Source of the DNA: Candidatus Poseidoniaceae archaeon
Lineage (GTDB): Archaea; Thermoplasmatota; Poseidoniia; Poseidoniales; Poseidoniaceae
Assembly (NCBI GenBank): GCA_949372875.1
Contig: CASIAW010000001.1
Coordinates: forward strand, 554,869 to 618,868
DNA length: 64,000 bases
Direction of reading: 5' to 3'
Below the pieces are notes generated by a model that saw only the letters and a list, made by a program, of their open reading frames with translations, was not told the origin of the DNA and made no database searches. This document shows positions 51,791 to 60,319 of the stretch, piece by piece; within the stretch, counting starts at the first letter, position 1; each line of letters opens with the position of its first letter. A program made the position numbers and the translations under genes.

Positions 51791-52012
51791 ATGGGATTCT
51801 GTATCAGTTGCGGTCAACAACACCAAGATGGCATACGATTTTGTCGATTCTGCGGCAATCAGCAACCCGGTGAACAACTCCTTGCTCGTCTTCGACAAGA
51901 AGCCGAACAAATTCATTATCTTCGCCTCCAAGCGCAAGCATTGGCCCAGCAGCAACAGCAACAACAGCAGCAATATTCACAAAACCAGTATAATCAACAG
52001 CAACGCTGGTGA
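51791..52012 (+). CDS. Small zinc-ribbon protein with polyglutamine tail
   Basis: MGFCISCGQQHQDGIRFCRFCGNQQ...QQQQQQQQQYSQNQYNQQQRW; ATGA overlap with the next gene. Confidence 0.65.
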   Translation: MGFCISCGQQHQDGIRFCRFCGNQQPGEQLLARLRQEAEQIHYLRLQAQALAQQQQQQQQQYSQNQYNQQQRW

Positions 52013-52674
52013 TTGGTTTGCGCCCGAAACATCTCGCAATCGAATTGTCGAAACTGCAACCACACCCATGCACTTCTGTCGAACTTGAGCAATATGCAAC
52101 TGAGGGCGACCTAGCGGCTTACTGGATTCTTGGAATCGACCAAGTTGATGAAGTCGAAGGGAAACGTATCCTCGACATTGGAGCTGGAAACGGTATTCTC
52201 GGCTTTGGATGTTTGCTCATTGGAGCACAACATGTCACACTCGTTGAATCGGATTCTCAAGTCATGGAAACTCTTGAAGCAAATGCTGAACGTCTTTCCA
52301 CCCGTTGTGAAGGAACTGTTGAAATCATCCAAGAGCACGTTACTTCTCGTTCTGAAACACCATCACTTATCCCGGATATTATCGTCATGAATCCACCGTG
52401 GGGGGTGCAAACTGCAAAGGCAGACCGCCCGCTTTTGGAATATGCCTTTTCACTCGGTGCACCGGTAATTCACATTCTCCACAGTGCTCGTTCCAAACAT
52501 CTGCAAGCCCTTGGTCGGGATTTCGGTTACGAATCTGAAGCGATGCTTGAAACTGAGTTTCGACTTCCTCCAACCTACCTTCACCACACGAAAAAGAAGG
52601 CTTCAACCACCGTTCGATGCTGGCGCTTTCACCGACCTGGTGATGCGAAGTTACTCGAAGACGAGGACTCATAA
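52009..52674 (+). CDS. SAM-dependent methyltransferase (METTL5-like N6-adenine type)
   Basis: LEQYATEGDLAAYWIL; ILDIGAGNGILGFG; IIVMNPPWG. Confidence 0.85.
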   Translation: MIGLRPKHLAIELSKLQPHPCTSVELEQYATEGDLAAYWILGIDQVDEVEGKRILDIGAGNGILGFGCLLIGAQHVTLVESDSQVMETLEANAERLSTRCEGTVEIIQEHVTSRSETPSLIPDIIVMNPPWGVQTAKADRPLLEYAFSLGAPVIHILHSARSKHLQALGRDFGYESEAMLETEFRLPPTYLHHTKKKASTTVRCWRFHRPGDAKLLEDEDS

Positions 52675-52784: not shown

Positions 52785-54206
52785 ATGACGCCGAGCCTCG
52801 TCACCCCCGGGACACATGTATCAACCTCAGCAGAATGCGAGGCTGGAGAAGGAACCATCGAAATCGATGGGAAGATTTTAGCAACAACAACGGGGATGTT
52901 TTCCATCGATGATGGAATGGCAACTGTTTCTGCTGGAAAGAAAATTGTCATGCCAGAAGTAGGCGACACCGTACTTTGCGAAATTGTCAAACTCAATGAA
53001 AAGAACGGTGAGGCACAAGTCATTTGTATCGAAGGAAAACCTGGCAGCGTGCTCCCTGAACACCTCTACGGACAATTCCACGTAACGGGAATTGTCGACC
53101 GCTATATGCACCAAACGGCAGATGCTGTCCGACGACGGGATGTCTGTCGAGCTGAAGTCAAAGAAACCAGTCCTGTCTTACGAATCAGTTTCCGAGACCG
53201 TGATGACTGTGGTGTTCTCCATGCGATTTGCCCATCTTGTGGCGATGTTCTTGGAGCAGACCTCGACGGAGATTGGAATGTTCGCTGCCCTACGTGTAAT
53301 TATCAATCCTATCGCGCTCTTGCCGACAATTATGGCGCAGGTTGGGAAGAACTCGACCAAGGTGCAAGTGTCCTCAACAACTCAGGAAAGCGGTGGGGTG
53401 GCGCTGCTGAAGCAATGTTCGCTAAAGGACCAGCTGGCCGTGCTACATTCATAGCCGCTGACGTTCGTGAAGATGGACGAGAGCGATCTTATTTCCGATT
53501 TGAAGGAGAAAGTGCAGGCAAAGGTCGCCGTCCACGAAATGCTCCTGGCTGCCGCCTATTCGTCGGAGGACTCCCTCGTGATGTCGGCACAGAAGAATTA
53601 CGTGCACTGTTTACCGAACACGGCGACATGACCGATTGTATTGTCCTCACCGATGATAACGGCGTGAACCGAGGCTTTGGGTTTGTCACCTATTCCGACA
53701 AATCACAGGCTGATGCCGCAATTGCAAAACTCAATGGTCACAAAATAAACGGCCGTAAAATTGGCGTTCGTGATGCGGACAGCGATGATAAGAAAGGCAA
53801 GAAAGAGAAAAGAAGCGACCCTGAGGGACTCAAACTCTACATTGGCAACCTTCCATTCAAAGCGACAGAAGAAAATATCAAAGCCATGTTTGATGGAATT
53901 GCTACCGTCAATGGACTGGTTATCGCCACCAGTGGAGATGGTAAACCCAAGGGCTTCGCATTTGCATTCATCAAGGAGATGGACAAGGGCGAAGAAATCG
54001 TTTCCAAACTCAACGGCTCTGAACTTCTCGGACGCCGAATCAAAGTCGACGTTTCTCAAGGCGGGAAGAAAGGTGGTTCTCGCGGACCAAAGCGTGAAGG
54101 TAACAACAATTCAGATGGCAAATCATCTCGAGAACTTCAAGCACTCCGTGAAGAACAAGAGGATGCAAAGAAGCGCCCTCGACGCCGCCGAGAGAAGAAG
54201 GATTGA
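52785..54206 (+). CDS. Exosome RNA-binding subunit Csl4 fused to two RRM domains
   Basis: MTPSLVTPGTHVSTSAECEAGEGTIEIDGKILATTTG (Csl4 N-domain), S1-like region, CPSCGDVL...CPTCN zinc ribbon, then two RRMs (LFVGGL/RGFGFVTY and LYIGNL/KGFAFAFI) and a basic tail. ORF track starts at 52698; ATG 52776 or 52785 preferred. Confidence 0.88.
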   Translation: MTPSLVTPGTHVSTSAECEAGEGTIEIDGKILATTTGMFSIDDGMATVSAGKKIVMPEVGDTVLCEIVKLNEKNGEAQVICIEGKPGSVLPEHLYGQFHVTGIVDRYMHQTADAVRRRDVCRAEVKETSPVLRISFRDRDDCGVLHAICPSCGDVLGADLDGDWNVRCPTCNYQSYRALADNYGAGWEELDQGASVLNNSGKRWGGAAEAMFAKGPAGRATFIAADVREDGRERSYFRFEGESAGKGRRPRNAPGCRLFVGGLPRDVGTEELRALFTEHGDMTDCIVLTDDNGVNRGFGFVTYSDKSQADAAIAKLNGHKINGRKIGVRDADSDDKKGKKEKRSDPEGLKLYIGNLPFKATEENIKAMFDGIATVNGLVIATSGDGKPKGFAFAFIKEMDKGEEIVSKLNGSELLGRRIKVDVSQGGKKGGSRGPKREGNNNSDGKSSRELQALREEQEDAKKRPRRRREKKD

Positions 54207-56011
54207 AGGCAACCGACTCGAGGTTAGCCATCATGGTCGAACAGTCATCTCCGAAATGGCTGGTTCTTGATGGCTATGAGGATGAACCCGCAGCATTCGG
54301 TGTTCCACCCTATGTTGGATTCCATATTCGCTACCTTTGTGGAGTTTTAGAACAAGCTAAAATCGATTATGAATACGTTACGATTGATCAATGGCGCGAC
54401 TCCATTAGAAAAAACGGAGACGATTGGGCACGTAATCGACTTTCATCTGTTCAAGGCATCGCATGCATTGCTGGAGCAGTTGTACCCGGACGTTATCTCC
54501 GAGGCACTCCTCTTTCGCTTAAGGAAACTCGAAACATTATCCGAGAACTGCCATCAAACATACCAGCTTTGTTTGGCGGCTGGGCGATTCGAGGTTGGAG
54601 GCAACAAGGATGGACACCCCTGCGAAAAAATCTCTTCTTAGCGGTTCAAGATACGGATGCAACCCTCAATACATACCTTGCTACGGGGGAATGGAAGCAT
54701 ACTCGCCGCACTGCTGAACAATGGACACAGTGGGCACAAGCAGGTGCTTTGAGTAAATCGGTAACCGAACACCCAGACCTTGGAACAGAAGATAAGCAAG
54801 GCCCACTCACCTATGAGGTCGAAGTGTACCAAGGCTGTGTACGATACAAGCGTGGGTGCAAATTTTGTATTGAACCGAAAAAAGGAGTTCCAATCTGGCG
54901 CACTCCTGAAGATATTATCGAAGAGGTTCGACGGGCACATGATGCAGGCGTACAACACGTACGGCTTGGTGGGATGACGGACACGTATACATACATGGCA
55001 GAAGGCGTCAAAGAACTCGAATATCCCATACCTAACCCGGAACCAATTGCTCAACTCTTGCATGGATTACGTGAAGATGAACGACTTGGAATTCTTCATA
55101 CGGATAACGGCAACCCGTCAATCATTGCTGAGAACCTCGAAGAATCTGAAGCGATTACTAAAACACTGGTCGAAACACTTTCTGATGGTGCTGTCCTTTC
55201 TTTTGGGCTTGAATCTGCAGATCCGTCTGTCCATGACGCTAATTGGCTCAATTGCGATCCTGCACAACTGAAGGCTGCGATTCGTTTGGTCAACAAATAT
55301 GGTAAAGAACGCGGTTCACGTGGTTTGCCCAAACTTTTACCCGGTCTCAATTTCATTGCTGGGCTTAATGGAGAAACCGAGGCCAGTTACCAAATGAATC
55401 TCGACTTACTGCATGAAATCCGTCGCGAAGGGCTTCTCCTACGCCGAATAAATATCAGGCAGGTTGAAGGCGAAGGCTTCCAAGAGATTCCTCAAAAGGA
55501 ATTTAACATGTTCAAAACAAATGTTCGCGATACAATCGATGGTCCCCTTCTCGAAGAATTATTCCCAATGGGTGGAATATTATCCGATGTGCATTGGGAG
55601 ACGCATGATGGACGAACACGATTAGCTGCGCACCAACAAGAAAGCCATACTGCGGAAACATGTCGCGGTAAAGCCGGTATTACATTCGGACGCCAAATTG
55701 GCGCTTATCCAATTTTAATTGGTGTAGAATACCACATTCCACTGGAATCTCAGTCTGATGTCGTCGTTACGGGCCACGGTGCACGTTCGATCACAGGGGT
55801 TGAAATCAACCTCGACCATGAAACAATGACTCAGAAGCATCTTGAGGCTATTCCAGGGATTGGAGAGAAAACAGCATGGCGCTTGATCAGTGAACGAGCG
55901 AAGCGAAAACGCAAGACAAGAGAGCTTGCAGCATTCGAGCATCCAGAAGACTGGTTTAAGGCTGCATCCGTTGATTGGAATGATGAATTTTCACTTTACA
56001 TTAAATCATGA
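54203..56011 (+). CDS. Radical SAM protein with C-terminal helix-hairpin-helix (COG1031-like)
   Basis: YQGCVRYKRGCKFCIEPKKG cluster motif; C-terminal LEAIPGIGEKTAWRLISERAKRK. Confidence 0.85.
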   Translation: MKATDSRLAIMVEQSSPKWLVLDGYEDEPAAFGVPPYVGFHIRYLCGVLEQAKIDYEYVTIDQWRDSIRKNGDDWARNRLSSVQGIACIAGAVVPGRYLRGTPLSLKETRNIIRELPSNIPALFGGWAIRGWRQQGWTPLRKNLFLAVQDTDATLNTYLATGEWKHTRRTAEQWTQWAQAGALSKSVTEHPDLGTEDKQGPLTYEVEVYQGCVRYKRGCKFCIEPKKGVPIWRTPEDIIEEVRRAHDAGVQHVRLGGMTDTYTYMAEGVKELEYPIPNPEPIAQLLHGLREDERLGILHTDNGNPSIIAENLEESEAITKTLVETLSDGAVLSFGLESADPSVHDANWLNCDPAQLKAAIRLVNKYGKERGSRGLPKLLPGLNFIAGLNGETEASYQMNLDLLHEIRREGLLLRRINIRQVEGEGFQEIPQKEFNMFKTNVRDTIDGPLLEELFPMGGILSDVHWETHDGRTRLAAHQQESHTAETCRGKAGITFGRQIGAYPILIGVEYHIPLESQSDVVVTGHGARSITGVEINLDHETMTQKHLEAIPGIGEKTAWRLISERAKRKRKTRELAAFEHPEDWFKAASVDWNDEFSLYIKS

Positions 56012-56131: not shown

Positions 56132-59100
56132 ATGCGAACCAAGAATGTTACTTCAATTGCCCTTCTGTTCATGCTAATGCTACTCGGACAAGCGATGACT
56201 GGCCACCTATACCAATATCCAGGAATGGATGGAGATGCATCTCTTGAATCAGAGAACATTGTCATGGCCTCAAACTCTACAGATACTGATGGTGACGGCG
56301 TATATGACGTAGACGATGCCTGTCCGAATGGAAACACAGGATGGACTTCTTCTTCAGCAACTGATTATGATGCTGATGGATGCCAGGATTCGAGTGAGGA
56401 CACTGATGATGATAACGACGGATTACTGGATGCAAACGACTGGTGCCCCACTGGAAGTCTAGGGTGGACTTCTTCTTCAGTAACTGATTATGATTCTGAC
56501 GGATGTCAAGATTCTACCGAAGATGTTGATGACGATAATGACGGCGTAATAGATGCGGACGACTCGTGCCCGAAAGGTGATTTGGGATGGATTTCAAGTT
56601 CGTCAACAGATGCTGATAGCGACGGATGCAGAGATTCTACCGAAGATCCTGATAACGGAGGAAACAGCGGTAACAATACTGGTAACAATACTGGGAACAA
56701 TACTGGAAATGATTCAGACGGAGATGGAATCTCTGATGCACTCGATGACTGTCCGAATGGAGACACAGGATGGACTTCTTCTTCAGCAACTGATTATGAT
56801 GCTGATGGATGCCAAGATTCGAGTGAGGACACTGATGATGATAACGACGGATTATCAGATGTAAATGACGACTGTGCCGTTGGAAACCTCGGATGGACTT
56901 CTTCTTCAGTAACTGATTATGATTCTGACGGATGTCAAGATTCTACCGAAGATGTTGATGACGATAATGACGGCGTAATAGATGCGGACGACTCGTGCCC
57001 GAAAGGTGATTTGGGATGGATTTCAAGCTCGTCAACAGACGCTGATAGCGACGGATGCAGAGATTCTACCGAAGATTTCGATACCCTTTCTTGGAGCACA
57101 CCGGTCTCACTCGACAGCACAGGTTGGGTCGGCTTGGACACCTCATTAGCGATTGATTCCAACGATCATCTGCATGTGACCTACCAGGACAACAGCAATG
57201 CAAATCTTGCATATGTGACCTATGATGGCTCCTCCTGGAGCACACCGATCACACTCGACAATAGAAACATCGTTGGCCAAGAGTCCTCATTAGCGATTGA
57301 TTCCAATGATAACCTCCACGTGACCTATTATGCCGACTATCCTTCTTACAGTCTTGAGTACATGACCTATGATGGCTCTTCTTGGAGCACACCGGTCTCG
57401 CTCGACAGCACAGATAACGTAGGCAGGGAGTCCTCATTAGCAATAGATTCCAACGATAACCTGCACGTGACCTATCGTGACGGCACCAATGCCAATCTTG
57501 AGTACATGACCTATGATGGCTCTTCTTGGAGCACACCGGTCACACTTGACAGCACAGATAACGTCGGCTGGCAATCCTCATTAGCGATTGATTCCAATGA
57601 TCACCTGCACGTGACCTATTATGATTACACCAATGGCAATCTTGAGTACATGACCCACAATGGCTCTTCTTGGACCACGCCTGTCTGCCTCGAGAGTACA
57701 GATAACGTCGGCTGGGACTCCTCGCTAGCTATTGATTCCAGCGATAATCTGCACGTGACCTATTTTGACACTTCGAATGGTAATCTTGAGTATATGACCC
57801 ATGATGGCTCTTCTTGGAGTTCATCTGTTTCACTCGACAGTACAGATGAAGTGGGCTGGGTTTCCTCATTAGCGATAGATTCCAATGATCATCTGCACGT
57901 GACCTATTATGACAACACCAGTAAAAATCTTGAGTACATGACACATGATGGCTCATCTTGGAGTACACCTGTTTCGCTCGACAGCACAGATAACGTCGGC
58001 TATGACTCCTCGCTAGCGATTGATTCCAATGATAACCTGCACGTGACCTACCATGACAACACCAATGGTAATCTTGAGTACATGACCTCCAGCAATAGCT
58101 CAGGTGGCAATGGAACTGCAAATAACACCGAATGCCTGATCTTCACGAATTTCAATTTTGATTACAATTACTCTGCTGCACCACAGGATTCCTTTAATTT
58201 AACAGCTAATTTAACCAACACCTGTGCAGAAAGCGTCCTGTATCCAAACACTGTTGTGGTTTTCGAACAACAAGGAATCAACATTACTCATTCAAGCCAT
58301 TGGCGATATGAAATAAATGGAGAGAATTCGAGTTACTCTGTATCATGGCAAGTATCTCGAGATTCCACCTTTGGTGAAGGCGAAATGGTAATTTTTGAAA
58401 TACATCCCTCAAGAGATAATTGCTATGAAAATTGCACTGAAAGTCAAAATTATAACTATACAGTAGAAATCCCATTCGGACTCTTCGACCTGAATTCGTG
58501 CTATACAATAGGAAACATCACCGATGACTATTCCGCTGATATGACCTCATTCAATTTGTCTGCTGATTTAATCACCGACTGCTCGATGGGTTATGGAGGA
58601 TTACTCCATTATCCATGGGCGGATTTAGAAGGAGATTTCATCAACGGGACATATGTTGGGTATGGTGCGTCTTTTTATGCAATGGGCCTGAATGATTCGA
58701 ATCCTGTCCAATGGTCAATTGCAGTCCCGTCAAACCTAACCAACGGTACTGTGATGACGTATTCACTCGCTCCAACATGTGCCTGGGTCACAATGTCACT
58801 TCTCTGGCCATCGGTGAATAACTATAATTCATACAATCAAAATTGTGATGATGTGGGTTTTGATGAAATGTATCATTCTGTGGTTGTAATCAATTCCAAC
58901 TTCGATGATGAAAACAACACCGGCGGCACCAATATCTCAGAGTCATCTGTATCCATCGATTGGATTTATGTCAACTCAAGTATGAGTGGCGTTCATGATG
59001 CTCAATTCTCGGTCGAACATAACGGCACATGGACTGCGTATTGGGGCATCACGAATCCAAACACGGCTCCTACCTTCCCAACATGGAATTCCACTACTGG

Positions 59101-60319
59101 ATGGTGGGATGCGTCGGCAAGTGGCGACATCGGAACAACATCCGGCAACGGTGATACGACATGGATGTTCAATGATATGGAGCAATGGGGCGCTCTGGCA
59201 CCTCCATCATGCCACATCTTGATGATTGCATTATTTGAAGGTGAACTCGGAAGCGCATCGTCTCAAATGACACCTGCCCAAGGATTGCCGTTGTCGTCCG
59301 ACTTCCAAACTTTTGTCATAGGCAACCTCACCGATGCAGATTGTCAATGGGACGAAAGCTGGGGAAGCGAAGCCCCTTCAGAAAACAACACCGGGAATAA
59401 CACTGATGACAACACCGGAAACAACACTGGTGACAATACCGGAAACAATACTGATGACAACACCGGAAACAACACTGGTGACAATACCGGAAACAATACT
59501 GATGACAATACCGGAAATAACACCGGAGACGATGTGGATAACCAAGATGATTCAGTGGAAATATTCGACTGTGTATTTGGAGATATCAACTATGCTGAAG
59601 GAGCAGAAGTCATCTTCTACGTTTCTTGGGTTGATGCTTCAAATGTTCAGCATTGCGGAACAATTCAGTTTGAAATGTATTCCAATTCTGCCCCAATCCA
59701 TTCCCAAAACTTCCGAGACCACGTGGAAGCAGGAAATTATGACGGCGTCGGATTCCATCGCGTCATTGATGACTTCATGATTCAAGGAGGCGACATTGAA
59801 TTTGGAAATGGAATGGGCGGTTATGCGTATTCGTGGCAAGGATACTGTAGAGGTCAAATGATTGACCAAGCTGATTGCCTGCTCAATGATTATTCGATAC
59901 CGGATGAATTTGATACCAGTTTAGTACATCAGAAAGGTGCACTCTCCATGGCCCATTCAGGCCCGAATACCGGAGGATCTCAATTCTTTATTATGGACCG
60001 AAACGACGCTACGTGGCTCGATGGAGTTCACAGCGTGTTTGGACAAGCCATTGCAGGAACCATTGATGGCGTGGAAGTCACTGGAATCGAGGTTGTCGAT
60101 GCAATGAGTCTTGTTGAAGTCGAAGGCCCATCAGCAAGTTCACCGGTTCACGATGTGACTATCCTCAGTGCTGAGAACATAGGAACGCCCCAGAGCAATG
60201 AGAATCCAACTTTACCTGATGAAGAGGTTCCGCAGATTTCTTCGATTGGAGTGATTGGAACTGCTGTAGCCATCAGTGCTGGATTCTTCATCTCTATTCG
60301 ACGTGAAGATGAAGAATAG
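56132..60319 (+). CDS. Multidomain surface protein: TSP3-like Ca-binding repeats, seven 48-aa propeller-like repeats, cyclophilin-type PPIase domain, C-terminal TM
   Basis: 1395 aa; DADGCQDSSEDTDDDNDG repeats; SWSTPVSLDSTDNVG..SSLAIDSNDNLHVTY repeats; GFHRVIDDFMIQGGDIEFGNGMGG and SMAHSGPNTGGSQFFI cyclophilin motifs; TM IGVIGTAVAISAGFFISIRRE. Confidence 0.9.
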   Translation: MRTKNVTSIALLFMLMLLGQAMTGHLYQYPGMDGDASLESENIVMASNSTDTDGDGVYDVDDACPNGNTGWTSSSATDYDADGCQDSSEDTDDDNDGLLDANDWCPTGSLGWTSSSVTDYDSDGCQDSTEDVDDDNDGVIDADDSCPKGDLGWISSSSTDADSDGCRDSTEDPDNGGNSGNNTGNNTGNNTGNDSDGDGISDALDDCPNGDTGWTSSSATDYDADGCQDSSEDTDDDNDGLSDVNDDCAVGNLGWTSSSVTDYDSDGCQDSTEDVDDDNDGVIDADDSCPKGDLGWISSSSTDADSDGCRDSTEDFDTLSWSTPVSLDSTGWVGLDTSLAIDSNDHLHVTYQDNSNANLAYVTYDGSSWSTPITLDNRNIVGQESSLAIDSNDNLHVTYYADYPSYSLEYMTYDGSSWSTPVSLDSTDNVGRESSLAIDSNDNLHVTYRDGTNANLEYMTYDGSSWSTPVTLDSTDNVGWQSSLAIDSNDHLHVTYYDYTNGNLEYMTHNGSSWTTPVCLESTDNVGWDSSLAIDSSDNLHVTYFDTSNGNLEYMTHDGSSWSSSVSLDSTDEVGWVSSLAIDSNDHLHVTYYDNTSKNLEYMTHDGSSWSTPVSLDSTDNVGYDSSLAIDSNDNLHVTYHDNTNGNLEYMTSSNSSGGNGTANNTECLIFTNFNFDYNYSAAPQDSFNLTANLTNTCAESVLYPNTVVVFEQQGINITHSSHWRYEINGENSSYSVSWQVSRDSTFGEGEMVIFEIHPSRDNCYENCTESQNYNYTVEIPFGLFDLNSCYTIGNITDDYSADMTSFNLSADLITDCSMGYGGLLHYPWADLEGDFINGTYVGYGASFYAMGLNDSNPVQWSIAVPSNLTNGTVMTYSLAPTCAWVTMSLLWPSVNNYNSYNQNCDDVGFDEMYHSVVVINSNFDDENNTGGTNISESSVSIDWIYVNSSMSGVHDAQFSVEHNGTWTAYWGITNPNTAPTFPTWNSTTGWWDASASGDIGTTSGNGDTTWMFNDMEQWGALAPPSCHILMIALFEGELGSASSQMTPAQGLPLSSDFQTFVIGNLTDADCQWDESWGSEAPSENNTGNNTDDNTGNNTGDNTGNNTDDNTGNNTGDNTGNNTDDNTGNNTGDDVDNQDDSVEIFDCVFGDINYAEGAEVIFYVSWVDASNVQHCGTIQFEMYSNSAPIHSQNFRDHVEAGNYDGVGFHRVIDDFMIQGGDIEFGNGMGGYAYSWQGYCRGQMIDQADCLLNDYSIPDEFDTSLVHQKGALSMAHSGPNTGGSQFFIMDRNDATWLDGVHSVFGQAIAGTIDGVEVTGIEVVDAMSLVEVEGPSASSPVHDVTILSAENIGTPQSNENPTLPDEEVPQISSIGVIGTAVAISAGFFISIRREDEE
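56299..57079 (+). repeat. Two near-identical copies of a block of TSP3-like acidic repeats at 429-bp spacing
   Basis: tgtccgaatgg...acaggatggacttcttcttcagcaactgattatgatgctgatgg at 56321 and 56750; gattctaccgaagatgttgatgacgataatgacggcgtaatagatgcgg at 56511 and 56940. Confidence 0.9.
57089..58096 (+). repeat. Seven tandem 144-bp (48-aa) coding repeats
   Basis: Consensus SWSTPVSLDSTDNVGxxSSLAIDSNDNLHVTYxDxTNxNLEYMTYDGS, seven in-frame copies. Confidence 0.93.
59384..59533 (+). repeat. Tandem ~24-bp repeats encoding D(N/D)NTGNNT units
   Basis: gacaacaccggaaacaacactggtgacaataccggaaacaatactgat repeated. Confidence 0.92.

Follow-up and report, generated by a model that had tools for sequence, protein, structure and literature searches.

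In known exosomes, the N-terminal domain of the Csl4 subunit serves as its anchor to the Rrp41/Rrp42 ring. Substrate choice by archaeal exosomes is poorly understood, and the known preferences trace to Rrp4 and DnaG. Described archaeal Csl4 proteins (NF034126; e.g., A. fulgidus Csl4, PDB 2ba1) consist of an N-terminal domain, an S1 domain and a zinc ribbon, and end at the ribbon (∼180–200 aa). The Csl4 of Sulfolobus is not a strong poly(A) binder. After the N-terminal RNA-binding domain of DnaG had been fused artificially to the Csl4 C-terminus (chosen because the Csl4 N-terminal domain anchors to the ring), the fusion preferred poly(A), and reconstituted exosomes containing it degraded poly(A) faster than those with Csl4 alone (PMC4227792). 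In eukaryotes, RNA-binding proteins with RRM domains (RBM7 in NEXT, PABPN1 in PAXT) deliver RNA to the exosome as separate proteins, working via the helicase MTR4 and zinc-finger scaffolds; RBM7-type adaptors are analogous to, but physically distinct from, an RNA-binding exosome subunit (PMC5322736).

The gene compared here with these systems lies in a window of 64,000 nucleotides (the whole stretch of DNA analyzed) from a Candidatus Poseidoniaceae archaeon. The order Poseidoniales (Marine Group II) comprises two families, and its members have been called the most abundant planktonic archaea in ocean surface waters (PMC6461757). A preliminary description had proposed that one frame joins Csl4 to tandem RRMs, and its coordinates proved accurate: a single unbroken ORF (Table 1) scores above the cut-off of the Csl4 profile NF034126 and strongly matches Pfam RRM_1. 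The Csl4-RRM fusion is real and occurs lineage-wide across Poseidoniales. The protein resembles known archaeal Csl4 in its N-terminal domain, S1 region, zinc ribbon, methyltransferase neighbor and top-ranking fold match (A. fulgidus Csl4); unlike known Csl4, it continues past the ribbon into a conserved linker followed by a pair of RRMs and a basic tail, a layout characteristic of Poseidoniaceae.

Table 1. Features of the csl4-RRM locus (window coordinates).
Feature	Position	Strand	Details and evidence
Upstream methyltransferase (NPPW motif)	52009..52674	+	Pfam Cons_hypoth95/MTS
csl4-RRM fusion gene	52785..54206	+	473 aa; ORF, Pfam/NCBIfam profiles, orthologues
Csl4 N-terminal domain (ECR1_N)	52797..52907	+	Pfam PF14382, 28.3 bits (cut-off 27)
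S1-type beta-barrel	52968..53189	+	AlphaFold strands E62-70 to E132-135; fold match 2ba1_A; within NF034126 match
Zinc ribbon CPSC...CPTC	53211..53297	+	Sequence; four Cys invariant, 76/76
Conserved linker LNNSGKRW..AE..FAKGPAGRATFIAADVREDGRE..F	about 53376..53513	+	Invariant residues; dN/dS 0.038 (approximate)
RRM1	53556..53762	+	RNP2 LFVGGL, RNP1 RGFGFVTY; Pfam, AlphaFold, invariant aromatics
RRM2	53835..54044	+	RNP2 LYIGNL, RNP1 KGFAFAFI; Pfam, AlphaFold, invariant aromatics
Low-complexity basic tail (KKRPRRRREKKD)	54057..54203	+	Sequence; low pLDDT; dN/dS 0.18 (approximate)
Downstream radical SAM + helix-hairpin-helix gene	54233..56011	+	Pfam; starts about 27 nt past csl4 stop

The NCBIfam equivalog NF034126 matches residues 5–184 of the protein over positions 2–179 of its 180 (105.1 bits; cut-off 90). 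The Csl4-like N-domain of the preliminary description is recovered above the Pfam cut-off as ECR1_N, and the four zinc-ribbon cysteines (C149, C152, C168, and C171) lie at 53229–53297, where it had placed them, and are unchanged in 76/76 aligned sequences. Its S1-like region is present as a beta-barrel in the AlphaFold model, although a Pfam search of the fusion protein returned no separate S1 match. The single-chain AlphaFold model (mean pLDDT 75) has a confident Csl4 body and two RRMs, connected by low-confidence linkers, and a Foldseek search with this model ranks A. fulgidus Csl4 (2ba1_A) at the top (E 1.5e-16), followed by tandem-RRM proteins. By sequence, the C-terminal part finds the best PDB matches, in tandem-RRM proteins, and the N-terminal part retrieves A. 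fulgidus Csl4. Partner genes are also encoded, with SBDS-Rrp4-Rrp41-Rrp42 forming one cluster on contig C1 of the window's genome; in profile searches of this genome, Rrp41 scores 325.6 bits (above its cut-off of 318.7), and Rrp42 (236 bits) and Rrp4 (145 bits) are strong matches that fall below their cut-offs. By profile, domain set (N-terminal beta domain, S1 fold, and zinc ribbon, from Pfam, AlphaFold, and the fold match), and partner genes, the fusion protein is assigned to the archaeal exosome subunit Csl4. A search of the window's genome with the fusion protein found no second, unfused Csl4; the weaker second match that the Csl4 profile gives per genome should be Rrp4, as it is at locus L116. 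A bacterial-type RNase PH, unusual for an archaeon and perhaps tied to RNA 3'-end maturation, is encoded besides Rrp41/Rrp42 (G000:C7:33570-33959; L117:2005-2847; TIGR01966, 241 bits, above 141.5).

Downstream of the Csl4 body, the RRM profile check called for by the preliminary description gave a strong result, with Pfam RRM_1 (PF00076) matching the two stretches that contain the RNP motifs at a total of 113.5 bits. Both have the beta-alpha-beta-beta-alpha-beta topology in the AlphaFold model, and they belong to PF00076 on profile, topology, and RNP1/RNP2 aromatics. The predicted RNA-contacting aromatics (F259, F298, and F300 in RRM1; Y352, F391, and F393 in RRM2) are invariant in 76/76 sequences. 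An RRM profile search found no RRMs in the window's genome other than these two. The basic C-terminal tail, likewise anticipated, is present and of low complexity. Comparisons with close relatives put dN/dS at 0.015 in RRM2, 0.032 in RRM1, 0.038 in the linker, 0.056 in Csl4, and 0.18 in the tail, values that are approximate, having been obtained by the simple Nei-Gojobori method with dS near or above 1. The tail is the least constrained segment and the RRMs are constrained at least as much as the Csl4 part; these estimates show Csl4, the linker, and the RRMs to be under strong purifying selection.

The ∼45-aa conserved linker between the zinc ribbon and RRM1 had been overlooked in the preliminary description. 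Its residues N198, G201, W204, D226, and R228 are invariant across both Poseidoniales families. A class-wide search with the Poseidoniaceae linker found one copy per matching genome, solely in the csl4 frame; this short query misses the diverged linker of the second family. Judged by these comparisons, the linker is new and unique to Poseidoniales Csl4. Because a linker with invariant residues is common to both families, a single ancestral fusion or extension may be inferred, and this shared element points to the fusion having arisen once.

The preliminary description had suggested looking for the fusion in related genomes, and it was found throughout the order. The fusion protein has matches in 223 of the 244 Poseidoniales genomes searched, spanning 22/22 genera, and RRM(s) are present in the csl4 frame at all 19 loci opened, from both families. 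A further set of 80 named loci was drawn from records labeled Ca. Poseidoniaceae or Poseidoniales, some of them single-cell genomes and one the closed MG-II chromosome, CM001443.1. In this set the frame is complete in 75, with two RRMs in 74 and three RRM segments in one, and it runs off the contig in the remaining five. The exception (L201:738-2570) is a 611-aa frame with three RRM-like segments, possibly a recent duplication or insertion. In the order's second family (which we infer to be Thalassarchaeaceae, since the order has two families and the named matches mark the window's as Poseidoniaceae), Csl4 is followed by the same linker, a treble-clef zinc finger (CxxC-x17-CxxC; PF23477/TIGR04272; e.g., loci L034 and L037) in the position of the Poseidoniaceae RRM1, a single RRM, and an RG-rich or basic tail. 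One bin (G233) carries both Poseidoniaceae-type and second-family-type csl4, on contigs C52 and C65 (L043 and L035), probably through bin contamination.

Outside the order, the Csl4s opened are of the ordinary kind. A search of 380 genomes from the phylum (Thermoplasmatota) recovered Csl4 in 374, and the frames listed outside Poseidoniales are mostly 185–220 aa; those opened stop at the zinc ribbon without extension, so that the usual archaeal ending given in the preliminary description holds for the Csl4s opened outside the order, within the phylum. For the class's sister family, which lies outside Poseidoniales, Csl4 is about 185–214 aa long and the zinc ribbon is its end. Several longer Csl4 frames elsewhere in the phylum (297–511 aa) were considered as further extensions; the five opened (G264, G384, G456, G272, and G406) owe their length to spurious N-terminal read-ahead, not to C-terminal domains. 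One scan of viral contigs with the Csl4-part alignment found no viral relatives.

The same sister family carries an RRM as a separate small gene (frames of 85–105 aa), and in a tree of RRM sequences the nearest kin of the fused RRMs are the standalone RRMs of this class, with moderate support; the tree rests on 77 columns, and the placements of RRM1/RRM2 and of eukaryotes are unsure. The NCBIfam model NF058537 ("RNA-binding regulator"), which describes bacterial-type Rbp, recognizes standalone relatives at 115.5 bits (cut-off 100); the fusion protein scores 96.7 bits, just under the cut-off and therefore outside the family, and a deep Poseidoniaceae homologue scores 129.5 bits. The fusion shares RRM sequences with these bacterial-type Rbp and standalone proteins, but they are single-domain, 80–130 aa long, and not joined to Csl4. 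A standalone bacterial-type RRM is a likely source of the fused domains. Since a methyltransferase, the ancestral neighbor, also adjoins csl4 in 14/19 loci outside the order, the RRMs appear to have been added to a resident, orthologous csl4. In the Poseidoniales ancestor, a small bacterial-type RRM gene would have been appended once to this gene, after which one daughter family would have come to carry two RRMs and the other a zinc finger and one RRM. The resemblance to eukaryotic exosome adaptors drawn earlier stands as an analogy but not as kinship: the RRMs come near the cut-off of the bacterial Rbp model, their grouping is with standalone RRMs of archaea rather than with an exosome adaptor family, and the protein falls outside the RBM7/NEXT type, as its RRMs sit inside the Csl4 subunit itself, covalently part of the cap.

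Our preferred reading, at a probability of roughly 0.7, is that the fusion protein is the sole Csl4 of this organism's exosome, with a built-in RNA-capture arm, because the Csl4 body is intact, the exosome partners are encoded, and in the same protein a flexible linker leads to two RRMs with intact RNP motifs. The N-terminal domain would dock the protein onto the Rrp41/Rrp42 ring, and the RRMs would hang over the pore and bind single-stranded RNA segments. Such binding would raise the local substrate concentration and bias the choice of RNAs threaded for phosphorolytic decay or, alternatively, for A-rich tailing in the reverse reaction, and the basic tail would contribute non-specific affinity. 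The RRMs are thus probably RNA-capture arms on the exosome cap that help catch and sort RNAs for decay. DnaG and Rrp4 already confer RNA preference on other archaeal exosomes, which counts against this reading, as any value added by the RRMs is conjectural. Compensation for a loss of DnaG is ruled out, as DnaG is encoded in the genome (371 bits; cut-off 300). The substrate selectivity suggested in the preliminary description has an experimental precedent in the engineered Csl4-DnaG-NTD fusion, which likewise places an RNA-binding domain on the Csl4 C-terminus but is a laboratory construct with a non-RRM domain, whereas the Poseidoniales fusion is natural and order-wide (PMC4227792).

Other readings were considered. 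The RRMs may bind RNA in a role other than decay, as an RNA chaperone or a translation/cold-adaptation factor like bacterial Rbp, the exosome link being incidental; the NF058537 match of the standalone relatives fits such a role, and the genome's sole RRMs, sitting in the fusion, may have absorbed the job of a former standalone gene. We regard this as unlikely, given that the Csl4 body, the zinc ribbon, and the ancestral csl4 gene position are all conserved and that a genome in which no second, unfused Csl4 was matched must use the fusion protein as its cap. Slightly less probable still is that the RRMs mainly bind protein and recruit a partner (helicase, ribosome, or RNase) to the cap. RRMs can bind proteins rather than RNA, as in the binding of ZCCHC8 by the RRM of RBM7 (PMC5322736), which weighs against an RNA-capture arm, and RNP1 of RRM2 is less canonical, but the invariant RNA-contacting aromatics of both RRMs and the RGG/basic tails of the second family suit RNA binding. 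An assembly chimera, a frameshift, or a mis-called ORF, which would make the fusion an artifact, is refuted by identical architecture over 22 genera, in single-cell genomes and in a closed chromosome. A tentative extension of the RNA-capture reading, with the odds somewhat against it, is that the Poseidoniales cap carries sequence-selective RRM targeting modules that evolved independently of eukaryotes, as a self-contained, RNA-programmed decay machine replacing separate adaptors, in which family-specific arms would select different target sets.

The preliminary description would have counted it as a refutation if Csl4-RRM fusions were already widely described in archaea; no description of them was found in the open-access papers searched, and the main phylogenomic paper on Poseidoniales is silent on both the exosome and RNA-binding. 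In Poseidoniales, RRMs and the exosome cap are naturally and covalently joined throughout the order, which makes a clean Rosetta-stone case for RRM proteins and exosomes acting together and a parallel to the eukaryotic RRM adaptors. Four recombinant proteins would suffice for an in vitro test of the activity predicted for this small protein.

The radical SAM + helix-hairpin-helix gene is kept downstream of csl4-RRM in 74 of the 80 named loci, and it does not adjoin csl4 at the loci compared outside the order. It is probably co-transcribed with csl4-RRM, and a link to RNA modification is possible. A fusion of Csl4-RRM with this gene, to which three genomes with open frames of ∼1000 aa had pointed, was rejected, as a stop codon separates the genes in L038, the one inspected. 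Further downstream, the window encodes a 1395-aa, secreted-looking protein (56132–60319) that combines DxDxDG repeats of the calcium-binding type with a C-terminal part resembling cyclophilin.
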